Of a stretch of 64,000 nucleotides of DNA, positions 16,931-25,067 are shown piece by piece. The notes beneath the pieces are model-generated. The model made no database searches and was not told the origin of the DNA. It saw nothing but the letters and a program-made list of their open reading frames with translations. Within the stretch, counting starts at the first letter, position 1; every line of letters begins with the position of its first letter. The translations under genes and the position numbers were made by a program. The stretch spans positions 248,001 to 312,000 of the forward strand of contig JAIBCL010000002.1 of the NCBI GenBank assembly GCA_019694165.1, read 5' to 3'. Origin of the DNA: Verrucomicrobiaceae bacterium. GTDB taxonomy: Bacteria > Verrucomicrobiota > Verrucomicrobiia > Verrucomicrobiales > Verrucomicrobiaceae.

Positions 16931-18094
16931 TCACTTCTTCTTGTCCCACTCGCGGGCTTTCACGATCTGGAGCACTTCACCCGTCGCGGCGAAGTCGGCG
17001 ATCTTCCACTTCTCGAGGTATTGCAGCGCGTTGTTGAGCTGCGTCACGTCGCCTTTGCGGGATTCGATCTTGTCGGCGGGCGTGGCTTTGACATCGGCCA
17101 CGAACGCGTCGGCCATCGCCGTCGCTTCGTTTGTCGCGCCTGCGTCCTTCGCATACACGAGCGACTCGAGCAGATGCAGCAGCTTCTCCTTGCCTTCCAT
17201 CTTCGCCGCCTTGTCGCGGATGCTGGCGGCGATCTCGGCGCGCTTCGCGGCGGTTTGCTCAGCGCTCATGACGCTCGTGTCACCGCCGTCGATCGCGCGC
17301 TTCGGCAGCGGACGATACCAGATGTTCCGGTAGCGCACGGGATTGCCGTGATCCTGCAGCTTGAGCGGACCTTTGTCAGGGAATGGACGGTCCTTCGTGC
17401 GCGCCTTGTGGCCGCCGCCGCCTTGCAGTGGGGTGTGATCCTGCAGGAGCACGCCATTGCAGAAGACGGTGAGATAGCCCGCATCGACGAGCTGGCCGTC
17501 CTTGTAAATCGGACGGCGGAAGATGATGTCGTAGAACTGCCACTCGCCCGGCTTGCGCAGCGCGTTCGCCATGGGCGGATTCACGCCATAAACAGAGCCG
17601 GCGAAGCCGTCGGAGTACGTCGGATTGCCGTGGTTGTCGAGCACCTGCACTTCGACCTGGCCCATGAGAAACACTCCGCTGTTGCCGCGGCCCTGGCTGT
17701 CACCATGGACCTCGCTCGGCGCGGACCATTCGATGTGAAGCTGGCAGTCGGCCCATTCGTCCTTCGTGCGCACGTAGCCCGAGCCGGGCACGCATTGCAG
17801 CGTGGCATCTTTGACCACCCACTTCGTCGGCTCGCCGTTCTTGTCGGAGATCCAGTTGCCGAGCGTGGCATCGGTTCCGTCGAAAAGAATCACCGCATCC
17901 GATGGCGGCGTGCCGGGCTTCTCCTGCGAGCTGAACGTCGCCGGCTCCACGCGCGGCGGCTGCGGGCGGTTCATGTCGTGAATGGCCCAGGGATGCACGG
18001 CGTCCGGCGGATCGCCATAAAAGGCTCCGTCAGCGTGAAGAAGAGCGGCGGGAAAAGGCAGCGCGCAGATGGCGATGAGCAGGTTGGTTTTCAT
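16931..18094 (-). CDS. Secreted DUF1080 protein with C-terminal helical extension
   Basis: The 387-residue protein has a signal peptide (MKTNLLIAICALPFPAALLHA) and a DUF1080 domain starting at VILFDGTDATLGNWIS, with the core GRGNSGVFLMGQVEVQVLD, GSVYG, and the typical ending GNPVRYRNIWYRPLP. After it, about 90 residues form a charged helical tail (QTAAKRAEIAASIRDKAAKM onward) not found in the shorter DUF1080 protein at 12395-13096. It is probably an exported carbohydrate-active or binding protein. Confidence 0.92.
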   Translation of the reverse strand: MKTNLLIAICALPFPAALLHADGAFYGDPPDAVHPWAIHDMNRPQPPRVEPATFSSQEKPGTPPSDAVILFDGTDATLGNWISDKNGEPTKWVVKDATLQCVPGSGYVRTKDEWADCQLHIEWSAPSEVHGDSQGRGNSGVFLMGQVEVQVLDNHGNPTYSDGFAGSVYGVNPPMANALRKPGEWQFYDIIFRRPIYKDGQLVDAGYLTVFCNGVLLQDHTPLQGGGGHKARTKDRPFPDKGPLKLQDHGNPVRYRNIWYRPLPKRAIDGGDTSVMSAEQTAAKRAEIAASIRDKAAKMEGKEKLLHLLESLVYAKDAGATNEATAMADAFVADVKATPADKIESRKGDVTQLNNALQYLEKWKIADFAATGEVLQIVKAREWDKKK

Positions 18095-18260
18095 AGGCAG
18101 ACGCGATTCTGGAACGGGCACATGCATCGGGCAAGCGTGGACTCCGACCGGATCGGCACGGCTTCCGACCGCATCCGGCTCCATCGCTCAAACCAATCGC
18201 GCGGACGGGAATATCAATTCCCCTTTCCCACCTCGTTCTGATAGCATTGGCCATAAATAT

Positions 18261-21200
18261 ATGGGCGAATTCATCGGACTCCTCCTGTTCATCGGCCTCC
18301 TTGTGCTGGTGTTTGTCTTACCCATCCGCGCCGCAATCCGAGCGTCAGATGCGATCAGCCGCGCCGACGCCGCGCATGGCCGGATCAAAGAACTCACCGC
18401 GAAACTCCTCGAGCTTCAGGAGCGCATTCGCGAACTCGAGAAGCGTCCCGCCGCCGCACCGCCCGCTGCGGAAAAAATTCTCAGTGCCATCGCGCCCGAG
18501 CCACAGCCCCAGCCCGAGGCGAAGCCGGTCTTTGAAGCCCCCGCACCTCCCGAGCCGCAACATCAGCCACCGCCCTTACCGATCATCAAAGAAGAAGTCG
18601 CCGCTGCTCCCGCGTCGCCACCACCATCGGTCCCATCGGTCCCATCGGTCCCATCGGTCCCATCCGTCCCATCGGTCCCATCCGTCCCAACCCGCCCCGC
18701 GATCAATCTCGAGCAATTCATGGGAGCGAAGCTCTTTGCGTGGATCGGCGGACTCGCGCTTTTCCTCGGCGTCGTGTTCTTCGTAAAGCTCGCCATCGAG
18801 CGGAACATGATCTCGCCGGCAGCGCGCACGGCCATCGGATTTATCACCGGCGCGGGCTTGCTCGTCGGCGGCGTGCTCACGCATCGCAAGAAAGCACTCA
18901 CCACGCTCGCGCAGACGCTCTGCGCCACAGGCACGCTGATTCTCTACGGCGTCACCTTCGCGGCGCACACGCTGTACAAATTCCCGGCGTTCGGCTCAGG
19001 GCCGACGTTTCTGCTGATGTCGCTCATCACCATCACCGCCTTCCTGCTTGCGGTGCGGCTAGATGCGCTGGTCGTGGCGATTCTCGGCATGGCGGGCGGA
19101 TTTCTCACGCCGGTTCTCGTCTCCACGGGCCAGGACAATCCGCTCGGCCTTTTCAGCTACATCGCGCTGCTCGATGTGGGCCTCATCGGCATCGCCAAAC
19201 ATCGCCGCTGGCTGTTCCTCTCCGCGCTCGGTGCGGCGGGCACCGTCATCATGCAATTCGGCTGGTTCGGGAAATTCTTCCATCGCGGCAATTACTTCGA
19301 GGGCGGCGCGACGCTCGTGCCCATCGCCATTTTCCTCTTCTTCGCGGCGCTGTTCCTCGCCGGAAGCTGGTGGTCGCGCAAACGCGATGCCGCCGATCTC
19401 TTCCCCGCCGCATCCACGCTCGGCCTCTGCGCGAGCGCCATGTTCTTCGCCTTCGGGTTCCTGAGTTACGGCACGATCACGGAACGCCCCGCGCTGCTTT
19501 ATGCCTTTGTCTTCGCGATCAATGCCATCGTTCTCACGACCATCGGCATCCAACCGCGACTCGCGCTCGCGCAGATCATCACCGCAGGTGTCACCTTCAT
19601 CCATCTGGCCGTCTGGACCGACTCGCGGCTCACGAACGAGATGCTGCCGGCCGGTCTCGCTTGCTATCTGGTCTTCGGCATCATGCATTCCGCGTTTCCT
19701 GTCGTGTGGCGGAGGCTGCGTCCGGAAAACTCACCACGACTTCCGCTCGGCCCGTGGATTCCCGTCGCCGCACTCGTGCTGATGCTGATGCCGATCCTGA
19801 AACTCGAGGCGATTTCGTTCCTCATCTGGCCCGCGATTCTACTCGTCGATCTGCTGCTCATCCTGCTCGCCGTCATCACGACCGCGCTCGCCCCCGTGCT
19901 CGCGGCGATCGTGCTCACGCTCGTGGCCGCAGCGATCTGGCTCTTCAAACTGCCTGCGCACATCGCCAGCCTTTCACCGTTCCTGTTCGTGCTCGGCGCG
20001 TTCAGCGTCATCCTCGCCACCGCCGGCTGCTGGCTCGCGCGACGCCTGCTGCCGCGGCAAAGCGAAGGCGCGATCTCGCTTCGCAATCCGAACGACCAGC
20101 TCGCCGCCGCACTGCCGGTCGTCTCGTCCGCGTTGCCGTTTCTGCTGCTCATCATGGCCGTCGCGCGCCTGCCGGTGACCGTGCCCACTCCCGTCTTCGC
20201 GCTGGCTTTGCTGCTCGTGATCGTCCTTCTCGGCCTCGCAAAAATCGCGAAGCAGTCCATGCTCACCATCGCCGCGCTCGGCTGCGTGCTCGCGCTGCAG
20301 TTCGCGTGGCACTCGCATCGTTTCGACGCGGATCTTCCCGTCGTGCCGGTCGCGTGGTATTGCGGATTTGCCGCCATCTTCATGGCGTATCCCTTCGCGT
20401 TCCGCACCACGTTTCGCGACAGCGTGATTCCGTGGGCTGCCTCCGCCGTGTCGGGCGTCGGTCACTTCCTCTTGATCTACGACGTCGTGAAGCGCGCCTG
20501 GCCGAACAGCGCGATGGGACTGTTGCCCGCCGCGTTCGTTCTGCCGCCGCTCGCGGGTCTCGTGTCGATCTTGCGCACGGCAAAACCGGGCCATGTGCGC
20601 GACACGCAGCTCGCGTGGTTTGGTGGCGTGGCATTGTTCTTCATCACGCTCATCTTCCCGATTCAGTTCGACCGTCAGTGGCTCACGCTGGGCTGGGCGC
20701 TGGAAGGCGCGGCGCTGTGCTGGCTTTTCAATCGCATCCCGCACAACGGCCTGCGCTACGTGGGCGTCGCGCTGCTGGTCGCCGCATTCGCCCGTCTCGC
20801 GGTGAATCCCGCCGTGCTCACCTATCACGCACGCAGCGGCACGCCGATCTTCAACTGGCATCTCTACGCCTACAGCATCGCCGCTGCGGCGCAGTTCGCC
20901 GGCGCGTGGTGGCTGCGACCGCCGAACGACCGCATCCAGCAGTTCAACGCGCGGGCCGTGCTCGCATCGCTCGGTGGCGTGCTGCTTTTCCTCCTGCTGA
21001 ACATCGAGATCGCCGACTACTTCACGCCCGCCGGCGGCAGGTTCATCACCTTCGACTTCAGCGGCAATTTCGCGCGCGACATGTCCTACAGCATCGGCTG
21101 GGCCGTCTTCGCGCTGGCGCTGATCTCGCTTGGAATTTGGAAACGCATCAGCGGCGCGCGCTACGCGGGCATCGGCTTGCTGGCCGTCACGCTGGTGAAG

Positions 21201-21329
21201 CTGTTCTTCCACGATCTCGCCGCCATCGGCAGCGGCTACCGGATCGCGGCGCTCATCGTCGTAGCCATCATTGCGCTGGCAGCGTCGTTTCTTTATCAGC
21301 GGTTTTTTGATGAGGAGGGGAAGTCATGA
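18261..21329 (+). CDS. Large polytopic membrane protein, DUF2339
   Basis: The 1022-residue product has an N-terminal membrane helix (GLLLFIGLLVLVFVLPI), a coiled coil (RIKELTAKLLELQERIRELEKR, about 35-56), a long proline-rich linker, then GAKLFAWIGGLALFLGVVFFVK and more than 20 further membrane helices. This is the DUF2339/COG5373 layout. Function is unknown; the usual neighbour DUF3999 follows here with an ATGA overlap, so they likely form one complex. In the linker a 9-bp tandem repeat encodes repeated PSV. The ATG at 18261 is chosen over earlier frame. Confidence 0.9.
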   Translation: MGEFIGLLLFIGLLVLVFVLPIRAAIRASDAISRADAAHGRIKELTAKLLELQERIRELEKRPAAAPPAAEKILSAIAPEPQPQPEAKPVFEAPAPPEPQHQPPPLPIIKEEVAAAPASPPPSVPSVPSVPSVPSVPSVPSVPTRPAINLEQFMGAKLFAWIGGLALFLGVVFFVKLAIERNMISPAARTAIGFITGAGLLVGGVLTHRKKALTTLAQTLCATGTLILYGVTFAAHTLYKFPAFGSGPTFLLMSLITITAFLLAVRLDALVVAILGMAGGFLTPVLVSTGQDNPLGLFSYIALLDVGLIGIAKHRRWLFLSALGAAGTVIMQFGWFGKFFHRGNYFEGGATLVPIAIFLFFAALFLAGSWWSRKRDAADLFPAASTLGLCASAMFFAFGFLSYGTITERPALLYAFVFAINAIVLTTIGIQPRLALAQIITAGVTFIHLAVWTDSRLTNEMLPAGLACYLVFGIMHSAFPVVWRRLRPENSPRLPLGPWIPVAALVLMLMPILKLEAISFLIWPAILLVDLLLILLAVITTALAPVLAAIVLTLVAAAIWLFKLPAHIASLSPFLFVLGAFSVILATAGCWLARRLLPRQSEGAISLRNPNDQLAAALPVVSSALPFLLLIMAVARLPVTVPTPVFALALLLVIVLLGLAKIAKQSMLTIAALGCVLALQFAWHSHRFDADLPVVPVAWYCGFAAIFMAYPFAFRTTFRDSVIPWAASAVSGVGHFLLIYDVVKRAWPNSAMGLLPAAFVLPPLAGLVSILRTAKPGHVRDTQLAWFGGVALFFITLIFPIQFDRQWLTLGWALEGAALCWLFNRIPHNGLRYVGVALLVAAFARLAVNPAVLTYHARSGTPIFNWHLYAYSIAAAAQFAGAWWLRPPNDRIQQFNARAVLASLGGVLLFLLLNIEIADYFTPAGGRFITFDFSGNFARDMSYSIGWAVFALALISLGIWKRISGARYAGIGLLAVTLVKLFFHDLAAIGSGYRIAALIVVAIIALAASFLYQRFFDEEGKS
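18627..18689 (+). repeat. 9-bp tandem repeat inside the DUF2339 gene
   Basis: Seven consecutive copies of TCSGTCCCA (consensus TCGGTCCCA, two copies TCCGTCCCA) encode a repeated Pro-Ser-Val tripeptide in the linker between the coiled coil and the membrane domain. Being a multiple of three, copy changes keep the frame. Confidence 0.95.
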
Positions 21330-23359: not shown

Positions 23360-23672
23360 GCCGAAGCCGCATGTCGGGGTCTGAAACGCCCGACTTGGAG
23401 GCGAGGCGGCACGCCGTAATCAATCTCGCTCAGGTGAACCCGGGAACTCCAAGCGCGCGAGCCGCCTGAAGACGTCGGTCCAACGTGCGCATTGATCCGC
23501 CCGCCAGTTCGTTGCATCGTCGGCTTGAGGTCCCGCGCGAACGGTGTTTCGGCCGGCATGATCGACGAAGACCAGATGCCAGGAAGCCGGGACCAGAGCC
23601 GGAGAGAACCAGCGCGCGGCCCAATCTTGGCCCGCCGGCTCACACGCGCCCGGCGCGGTGGAGTACATTGCC
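23360..23672. other. Intergenic region without a recognised gene
   Basis: About 310 bp between the DUF3999 and Dop/PafA-like genes. Short open frames here have no family features. I looked specifically for a Pup- or UBact-like small protein ending in Gly-Gly-Glu/Gln or Gly-Gly and found none. A ribosome-binding site (GGTGGAG, 23657-23663) lies 9 nt before the next ATG. Confidence 0.7.
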
Positions 23673-25067
23673 ATGTTCAAACTCTCCGTACCCAGCCTTC
23701 CCGCCGCCTGCCTCGCAGGCATGGAAACCGAATACCCGATGGCCGTTTTCGACCACCGGCAGAAGCGCATCGAACCGCGCCTCGTCAGCGAGGCGGTGAT
23801 CCGGCTGGCGGGCCGCACCCGCTTCTCGCTGCCCAGCGGCCAGGACAAAGGCGTACATCTGGCGAATGGCGGCAAGATCTACCGCGAACCCGGGCGCGAT
23901 CAGGATTACGCCATCACCGAGTACGCCACGCCCGAAGCATCGAGTCCCTTTGAACTCGTGCGGCAGGTCGAGGCTGGAAACGTGTTGATGATCGATCTTT
24001 GCCGCCGGCTCCACGAGGAGCTGCCTGACGCCGCGCAGGCCGCAGTCTTCCGACACAATGTGTGCCCCGTTTCCGGCACGAGTTGGGCCACGCACGGGAA
24101 CGTACTCACCATCACTCCGGTGCGAACTCTCGCCGTCCATCTGACGCCGCATCTCGTCACGAAGGTCATTTATGCCGGCGGCGGCGGGCTCGCGAAGGAC
24201 GGGCCGCCCGCTTTCAGTCTCGCCCCGCGAATGGCCACGTTTACCTCGGTTGCAAACAGCCATACCACGTTCGAGCGCCCCCTGCTCAACACGCGCGACC
24301 TCTCCCACTGCACCATCTCCGCACGCCGCCAGCATTTGATCGGCTTCGAGATTCTGTGCTCCCACCGCGCGCGACTGCTCGACATCGGCGTCACCATGCT
24401 CGTCATGCGCATGATCGACGCCGGCCTGCGCCCCGGCGACGAGATGGGACTCGAAGACCCCATCGCTGCTCTTCACGGCTTCTGCGCGGATGTCTCCTGC
24501 AAGTCGGTGCGTGCACGCACGACCCGGGGCAGCATGGTCACGGCGCTCGACATCCAGCGCCATCATCTTGAAATGGCCCGGGCAAACCTCCACCGCGAAT
24601 TCATGCCCTCGTGGGCCGCCGGCTTGTGCGAGGAATGGGAGACGATGCTCAACCTGATAGGCGCGGGCGCGCCGGACTCGGTGGCGGACAAGGTGGACTG
24701 GGCCGCAAAACACACCGTCTTCACCCGGCACGTCGCTCAAAGCGGCCGCTCGTGGGAGGAGTGTCGCGACGAACTTTCCGAGATCGACATCCGCTTCGGC
24801 CAGCTCGACGACGGCATCTTCGAGCGGCTCGACGAAGATGGCCTGCTCGACCACCACATGCCCGGCATTGACCACATTTCCGATGCACTCACCACACCGC
24901 CACCCGACACGCGCGCCCTCCTGCGGGGCAATGCCGTGCTCGAACTCAACCGCGCAGGCCGCACCGGCACCGCCTTTTGGGACAAGGTCTGTGACAGCTC
25001 CGCGCGACGCATTCTCGACCTTGGAGATCCCTTCAAGCTCACCGCGGCGTGGGCGCCCGGAACTTGA
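23673..25067 (+). CDS. Pup ligase/deamidase-like (PafA/Dop family) protein
   Basis: The 464-residue product fits the carboxylate-amine ligase family of PafA and Dop, which join or process the prokaryotic ubiquitin-like protein Pup with ATP. The N-terminal GMETEY (16-21) corresponds to the G-x-E-x-E nucleotide/metal motif. The middle stretch HTTFERPLLNTRDLSH parallels the NTRDE-H motif of Dop, and LLDIGVTMLVMRM the following helix; however the usual G-D-A-N segment after RLH-I reads GFEILCS. The start is the ATG with a GGTGGAG site 9 nt upstream. No Pup, proteasome or Mpa gene is visible nearby. A ligase for another acceptor is possible. Confidence 0.8.
   Translation: MFKLSVPSLPAACLAGMETEYPMAVFDHRQKRIEPRLVSEAVIRLAGRTRFSLPSGQDKGVHLANGGKIYREPGRDQDYAITEYATPEASSPFELVRQVEAGNVLMIDLCRRLHEELPDAAQAAVFRHNVCPVSGTSWATHGNVLTITPVRTLAVHLTPHLVTKVIYAGGGGLAKDGPPAFSLAPRMATFTSVANSHTTFERPLLNTRDLSHCTISARRQHLIGFEILCSHRARLLDIGVTMLVMRMIDAGLRPGDEMGLEDPIAALHGFCADVSCKSVRARTTRGSMVTALDIQRHHLEMARANLHREFMPSWAAGLCEEWETMLNLIGAGAPDSVADKVDWAAKHTVFTRHVAQSGRSWEECRDELSEIDIRFGQLDDGIFERLDEDGLLDHHMPGIDHISDALTTPPPDTRALLRGNAVLELNRAGRTGTAFWDKVCDSSARRILDLGDPFKLTAAWAPGT

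Follow-up and report, generated by a model that had tools for sequence, protein, structure and literature searches.

The gene at positions 23673 to 25067 of the window, the 64,000-nucleotide stretch of Verrucomicrobiaceae DNA analyzed here, encodes an enzyme of the PafA/Dop fold that is neither a canonical PafA nor a canonical Dop. Its genome carries two more PF03136 genes, which lie next to each other on contig C34 in a hybrid operon for ubiquitin-like (Ubl) and Pup-like tagging. We consider the chances about even that the window gene codes for a second, trans-acting ligase of the operon's Pup-like tag, with an altered choice of targets. An earlier sequence-only reading had described the gene as isolated, which holds for the window and fails for the genome.

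The Gene and Its Neighborhood

The open reading frame begins with an ATG at 23673, stops at 25067 and encodes 464 amino acids. It is intact and contains a single PF03136 domain, without a TPR part. The GC content is 0.65 (0.80 at third codon positions), and the composition of the gene is that of its neighbors. Two features were assigned:

23657–23663, plus strand: probable ribosome-binding site GGTGGAG, 9 nt 5′ of the ATG (read from the sequence)
23673–25067, plus strand: PafA-like ligase paralogue (open reading frame, PF03136, PDB matches, predicted fold, start context)

The sequence-only reading had reported no Pup or proteasome gene nearby, and none is present within the 64-kb window. When the ten C34 operon proteins were run against the window by tblastn, only the two PF03136 queries matched, exclusively at 23673–25067; the remaining matches had E > 0.05, and no other operon homologue was found in the window. 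One frame there ends with G[GAS][EQ]; it has 158 codons, lies on the minus strand and overlaps a protein-coding gene. Genes for a histidine kinase and a thioredoxin are near the PafA-like gene, and no neighbor that would tie it to tagging was found within the window. A conserved neighborhood was considered and rejected. The histidine kinase, used as a query, had matches in 57 of 57 family genomes, and in the 11 relative loci checked, with ~1.5-kb flanks, the other window neighbors were absent beside it. PADLOC gave no match to the window protein. As a separate observation, a 9-bp tandem repeat (CCATCGGTC; 7.3 copies, 94% matches) at positions 18624–18689 of the window codes for a V-P-S repeat in a large membrane protein (18069–21329).

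Family and Fold

The Pup_ligase profile PF03136 covers residues 15–439 of the window protein (E 2.1e-65; 221.8 bits, cut-off 25). A comparison with PDB chains gave Dop and PafA matches with E values from 3e-36 to 2e-29. The protein scores 186 bits with TIGR03686, the PafA equivalog profile (cut-off 551), and 172 bits with TIGR03688, the Dop equivalog profile (cut-off 492), far too low in both cases. With 375 bits, a Poribacteria protein from the canonical PafA clade also stays under the TIGR03686 cut-off, so a missed cut-off says little alone.

The AlphaFold2 model, built from an input alignment of 50 sequences, has a pLDDT of 90.6 and a pTM of 0.91. Foldseek with this model placed Dop and PafA entries on top. 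In the VIA list, which serves as a second look only, the Z values are 46–42 against Dop and 41 and 37 against PafA; against the gamma-glutamyl ligases YbdK and GshA and the glutamine synthetases, which have the superfamily fold in common, they are at most 23. The sequence-only reading had proposed the PafA/Dop fold from GMETEY and NTRDLSH; both motifs are present, and the profile, the PDB chains and the predicted fold agree with it. A stretch of Dop-loop length before strand 2 is absent, as judged by the alignment and the GhExE-to-YxD distance, so in that respect the protein is PafA-type. Only two alignment columns discriminate PafA from Dop, and the window protein scores one each, which does not decide between the two.

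Departure from tagging altogether, with the enzyme making a gamma-glutamyl compound like the glutamate-cysteine ligases of the same superfamily, is in our view unlikely. Such a small-molecule amidoligase would suit a gene located outside the operon, with genes for a histidine kinase and a thioredoxin close by, and it would suit the superfamily fold common to YbdK and GshA. However, the protein resembles Dop and PafA far more than these enzymes in both fold and sequence, and the closest relatives adjoin a Pup-like gene in every operon found.

Active Site

The window protein retains all six Mg ligands (E18, E20, Y70, E83, H141 and H221), the counterparts of Glu8, Glu10, Tyr92, Glu99, His155 and His241 given for A. 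cellulolyticus Dop in PMC8599861. Three active-site arginines (R186, R202 and R208, equivalent to Dop Arg205, Arg221 and Arg227) and both alpha-loop threonines (T198 and T199) are kept as well. The following features were assigned from the alignment, the first also from PMC8599861:

23718–23732, plus strand: GhExE motif GMETE, residues 16–20; E18 and E20 align with Dop E8 and E10
23880–23888, plus strand: Y70-R71-E72; Mg ligand Tyr92 kept, base Asp94 (PafA Asp64) replaced by Glu72
23889–23912, plus strand: loop with extra residues (73–80) after the catalytic-base position
23919–23921, plus strand: Mg ligand E83, equivalent to Dop Glu99
24093–24095, plus strand: Mg ligand H141, equivalent to Dop His155
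24228–24230, plus strand: R186, equivalent to Dop Arg205
24264–24299, plus strand: T198–D209, TTFERPLLNTRD, with the two alpha-loop threonines, R202 (Arg221) and R208 of NTRD (Arg227)
24333–24362, plus strand: H221 (Mg ligand, His241) to S230; H-L-I-G-F-E226-I-L228 is the changed G-D-A-N

An aspartate has been proposed as the catalytic base of PafA and Dop (review PMC3511204; D94 in PMC8599861). The window protein has Glu72 at this position, and Asp is found in all 66 other aligned proteins (59 canonical and 7 hybrid-type). In the AlphaFold2 model, Glu72 is at the end of a predicted strand (68–72), before the loop with extra residues. The extra stretch occurs in all five PafA-like proteins of the clade and is absent from the canonical rows shown. 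The sequence-only reading missed the replacement of this Asp, which is more unusual than the change that it did describe in the G-D-A-N segment. The latter is present as claimed: the segment reads GFEILCS, with a mild change of Asp to Glu226. It is not special to the window copy, and GFEILCS was dropped as a distinguishing feature because the segment is also altered in the C34 PafA-like protein and partly in that of G049, another genome with the hybrid operon.

The NTRD motif is present in the window protein and lost in the other four PafA-like members of its clade. The C34 copy has the reverse pattern, with the Asp base kept and NTRD changed to GGDK, so the changes in the two copies are complementary in position. 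We considered the window copy as the better conserved paralogue and dropped this idea: it keeps NTRD, but where the canonical set is at least 95% identical (45 columns), it agrees in 27, the fewest of all, and the other seven hybrid-type proteins agree in 28–36.

The change of Asp to Glu72 could have crippled the ligase, and it leaves a real chance of regulation or other chemistry. An altered enzyme that binds Pup and ATP, perhaps forms Pup-phosphate and ligates it to lysine inefficiently has, in our estimate, a modest probability; its role could be that of a regulator that sequesters Pup, of a deamidase acting on Pup, or of a subunit that partners the operon ligase. It would agree with a replacement seen in one of 67 aligned proteins, with the reversed pattern in complementary places of the C34 copy and with the loss of the TPR part. 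Against it, Asp to Glu is conservative, every Mg ligand is kept, and the reading frame is intact with gene-typical composition.

The Hybrid Operon on Contig C34

The C34 locus (L004) is an operon of ten genes on one strand. In order, these encode a RING-like zinc protein (weak PF14446 match), a ThiF/E1 protein (E 1e-19), an E2-like protein with HPN and then Cys, an accessory protein, a YukD-type Ubl (E 6e-4, under the cut-off), a JAB peptidase, a proteasomal-type AAA+ ATPase, a Dop-like enzyme, a Pup-like protein and a PafA-like ligase with a TPR match in its long C-terminal part. PF14446 is said to come from the 2011 and 2015 papers of Burroughs on prokaryotic RING and Ubl systems. The E2-like proteins of the hybrid operons have no Pfam match and are named after the E2 signature of HPN and a following Cys. 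PADLOC returned only generic E1, JAB and AAA matches on C34, and no role in defence is claimed for the operon.

The presence of a Pup-like protein, Dop-like and PafA-like enzymes and a proteasomal-type ATPase together on C34 contradicts the description of the window enzyme as one without Pup. The other half of that description, without a proteasome, was borne out: the PF00227 profile search found no 20S proteasome gene in the genome, which is 96% complete. The C34 ATPase has both proteasomal-ATPase OB domains, with a TIGR03689 score of 225 bits (under the cut-off of 505). A GQYL-like C-terminus is the proteasome-docking end of such ATPases. The ATPases of the three hybrid operons found (see below) end in DTTAES, DPESQP and RRHRQPR, none of which is GQYL-like. 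The docking end is described as lost in organisms without proteasome genes (review PMC3511204).

In the Dop-like enzymes of all three hybrid operons, GhExE has Asp for its first Glu. This residue corresponds to a Mg ligand, and 59 of 59 aligned canonical rows have Glu there. The motifs, read from the alignment, are:

L004, 9238–10830: Dop-like enzyme, GGDYE
L010, 12652–14328: Dop-like enzyme, GGDVE
L133, 12811–14307: Dop-like enzyme, GFDTE

The Pup-Like Tag

The C34 Pup-like protein consists of 67 amino acids and ends in QRGGQ. It has no NCBIfam match, and a search of the genome with the Pup profile PF05639, of the kind that the sequence-only reading had recommended, misses its gene and would give a false negative. 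The absence of Pup from the genome, as suggested by this null result, was dropped since C34 carries the Pup-like gene. Because PF05639 can miss Pup-like tags outside Actinobacteria, calls of "no Pup" from HMM searches can be false.

In three of three hybrid operons, the Pup-like gene is directly 5′ of the ligase gene. The encoded proteins end in QRGGQ, QRGGQ and QKSAQ, and the C34 protein is homologous to the other two copies (E 2e-5 and 4e-5). The QKSAQ end, found in the G049 protein (L010, 14234–14476), lacks the double glycine that the other two share. Among 17,016 frames of at least 50 codons in the loci examined, 80 end with Q[RK][GTS][GA][EQ]: 65 have the UBact-type end RQR[TS]G[EQ], 14, which come from overlapping loci, are Pup-like genes of hybrid operons, and one is other. 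The position before the ligase, the homology across operons and this count of C-terminal ends make it most likely that the 67-amino-acid protein is a Pup.

Tags between Dop and PafA in canonical loci were also compared. The RQR[TS]G[EQ] end was present in 13 of 13 looked at, plus the G505 locus, and the exception is five Chloroflexota loci with tags ending in PQPGGE. A listing of tags by the GG[EQ] end missed the RQR[TS]G[EQ] tags and gave the five Chloroflexota tags and one probable chance frame.

Distribution and Phylogeny

The hybrid operon was found in three genomes of one order: our own (G000), G049 and G589. PF03136 was searched in four overlapping genome sets. It has matches in 11 of the 387 phylum genomes and 6 of the 386 order genomes; in the family the count is 2 of 68, and in the family of G589 it is 1 of 260. 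The window protein as a query matched 2 of 96 genomes, its own included. We also scanned one genome for each of 84,980 species with two short patterns, which may miss the own or very near genomes. Verrucomicrobiaceae bacterium UBA2429 (corresponding to G049) was the sole close relative among the matches listed (80 of 211). The other 79 have 24–30% identity, and those placed in the 64-protein tree fell in canonical clades.

In the 64-protein tree, the window, C34 and G049 PafA-like proteins form a clade with 100/100 support, outside the canonical Dop (26) and PafA (33) clades. The sequence-only reading had named, as the observation that would count against it, a complete Pup/UBact-proteasome locus elsewhere in the genome together with a place of this protein inside true Dop or PafA. 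A Pup-type locus does exist, without a proteasome, and the window protein lies outside both canonical clades. In the 38-row tree, which includes G589, the support is 99/97 for the three PafA-like proteins and 96/95 for all five. The window protein pairs with the C34 PafA-like protein (89/64 in the 64-row tree and 94/86 in the 38-row tree; 39–41% identity), and this copy is its probable closest paralogue; the pairing is probable, not more, as its branch lacks a star and both trees join long branches. As a side observation, the contig of L078 bears the label Methanoregulaceae archaeon, and its PafA-like protein falls among Armatimonadetes sequences, pointing to a binning error or a transfer.

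An extra PafA-like copy away from the operon is present in two of the three hybrid-operon genomes, our own and G589:

L134, 3031–5628: G589 stand-alone PafA-like gene, adjoining a STAND-type gene

No conserved tag gene was seen beside this G589 copy, which pairs with the G589 operon copy (100/100 in the 38-row tree). Since each extra copy pairs with its own operon copy, the two look like separate duplications, and the keeping of an extra ligase outside the operon probably has two or more origins. The gene that adjoins the G589 copy, on the other strand, codes for a large STAND-type NTPase as read from its translation (L134, 1–2679, G589:C144). Upstream of the G589 hybrid operon, also on the other strand, there is a STAND NTPase with WD repeats (L133, 1–4750, G589:C195), and the same segment encodes a protein resembling a type VI sheath subunit, again read from translation.

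The other four PafA-like members of the clade have 775–865 amino acids and a long C-terminal extension. The window protein stops at the catalytic domain, and no homology to the extension was found in the window. We regard it as quite unlikely that the gene is a non-functional relic of duplication heading for loss. The window gene itself was seen in a single genome, PF03136 had no match in the genome of the same genus or in 66 of 68 searched from the family, and the catalytic Asp and the TPR part are gone, all of which a relic would explain. It would not be expected to keep 464 codons free of stops after divergence to ~40% identity, nor the Mg ligands, NTRD and a third-position GC of 0.80.

Proposed Role

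In the preferred reading, the window gene would have arisen by duplication of the PafA-like ligase gene of a proteasome-less Ubl and Pup operon and would now stand alone. The Dop-like enzyme of the operon would deamidate the C-terminal Gln of the QRGGQ protein. The window enzyme, with its intact Mg-ligand set, would bind ATP and Mg2+, phosphorylate the resulting C-terminal Glu and couple it to an amine on its target, in trans beside the TPR-bearing ligase of the operon. Its use of the C34 Pup and its action as a ligase, not a hydrolase, are inferred, as are its targets and the fate of tagged proteins. Freed from the operon and the TPR part, it could have other targets; the TPR loss and the loop insert with Glu72 would change its targets or its kinetics. 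The signal of the tag would go to the AAA+ ATPase, not to a 20S proteasome. The sequence-only reading had suggested that this copy may act on a different acceptor, and the clade-specific loop insert, the TPR loss and the change of Asp to Glu fit that possibility. We think it very unlikely that the two PafA-like paralogues split the chemistry so that the window enzyme attaches the Pup-like tag to some new acceptor, such as the operon Ubl or a Ubl-modified protein; the resulting mixed Ubl-Pup conjugates would be recognized by the AAA+ ATPase with no proteasome involved.

Most studies treat Pup tags and ubiquitin-like tags separately. With both taggings in one operon, no 20S proteasome found and an extra ligase with an altered catalytic base, a genome like this would test the role of Pup without degradation, and also whether the two tag chemistries cooperate.

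Comparison with Known Systems

The hybrid operon is of a known kind, since earlier Pup loci, Ubl and Pup coupling and Verrucomicrobia homologues are in print. In Plesiocystis and Rhodopirellula, Iyer et al. 2008 (PMC2588565) described Pup loci that lack proteasome genes, and one of the organisms in their alignment figure is Chthoniobacter flavus. According to PMC7947786, PafA/Dop homologues occur sporadically in Verrucomicrobia, and some Planctomycetes have a single homologue. Conjugation of Ubl coupled with that of Pup, the same association of genes as here, is described for Thermofonsia and Planctomycetes by Kaur et al. 2020 (PMC7159879), and the related FtsH systems in that paper have JAB, E1, a RING-type E3 and a Ubl-E2 fusion. 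Their passage on Ubl and Pup coupling names no Verrucomicrobia. In contrast, our data cover three genomes of one Verrucomicrobia-type order, with the full gene order and with separate Ubl and E2-like genes. Two of these three genomes have the extra PafA-like ligase away from the operon, and the same passage includes none. Among open-licence papers, we found no mention of a dispersed extra ligase.

The Pup ligase PafA of C. glutamicum (4BJR, 4B0T) has the fold, Mg ligands and active-site arginines in common with the window protein and is likewise without the Dop-loop. Identity between the two is 24–27%, and the window protein differs by Glu for the catalytic Asp, the inserted loop and a place outside the PafA clade. 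The depupylase/deamidase Dop of A. cellulolyticus (4B0R, 5LRT) is the best match in sequence and fold, and TT..R..NTRD is common to both; unlike this Dop, the window protein has no Dop-loop, lies outside the Dop clade and has Glu for Asp94.

The proteasome-less pupylation of Corynebacterium, as described in PMC3511204, is similar in having Pup beside PafA, a proteasomal-type ATPase and no 20S genes, and it differs in that the system found here is joined to a Ubl pathway and has a dispersed extra ligase. The UBact-type Pup-proteasome loci (G505, locus L135, Poribacteria and others) have, as here, Dop, a small Q-R-x-G-[EQ] tag and PafA. Unlike here, their tags end with RQR[TS]G[EQ], their PafA and Dop fall in the canonical clades, and the G505 locus has two frames resembling proteasome subunits between tag and PafA. 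The G505 locus (L135, 7890–12636, G505:C447), with a tag ending in RQRTGE, is a canonical UBact-type locus from the same order as the hybrid operons, so both types of system exist within this order.
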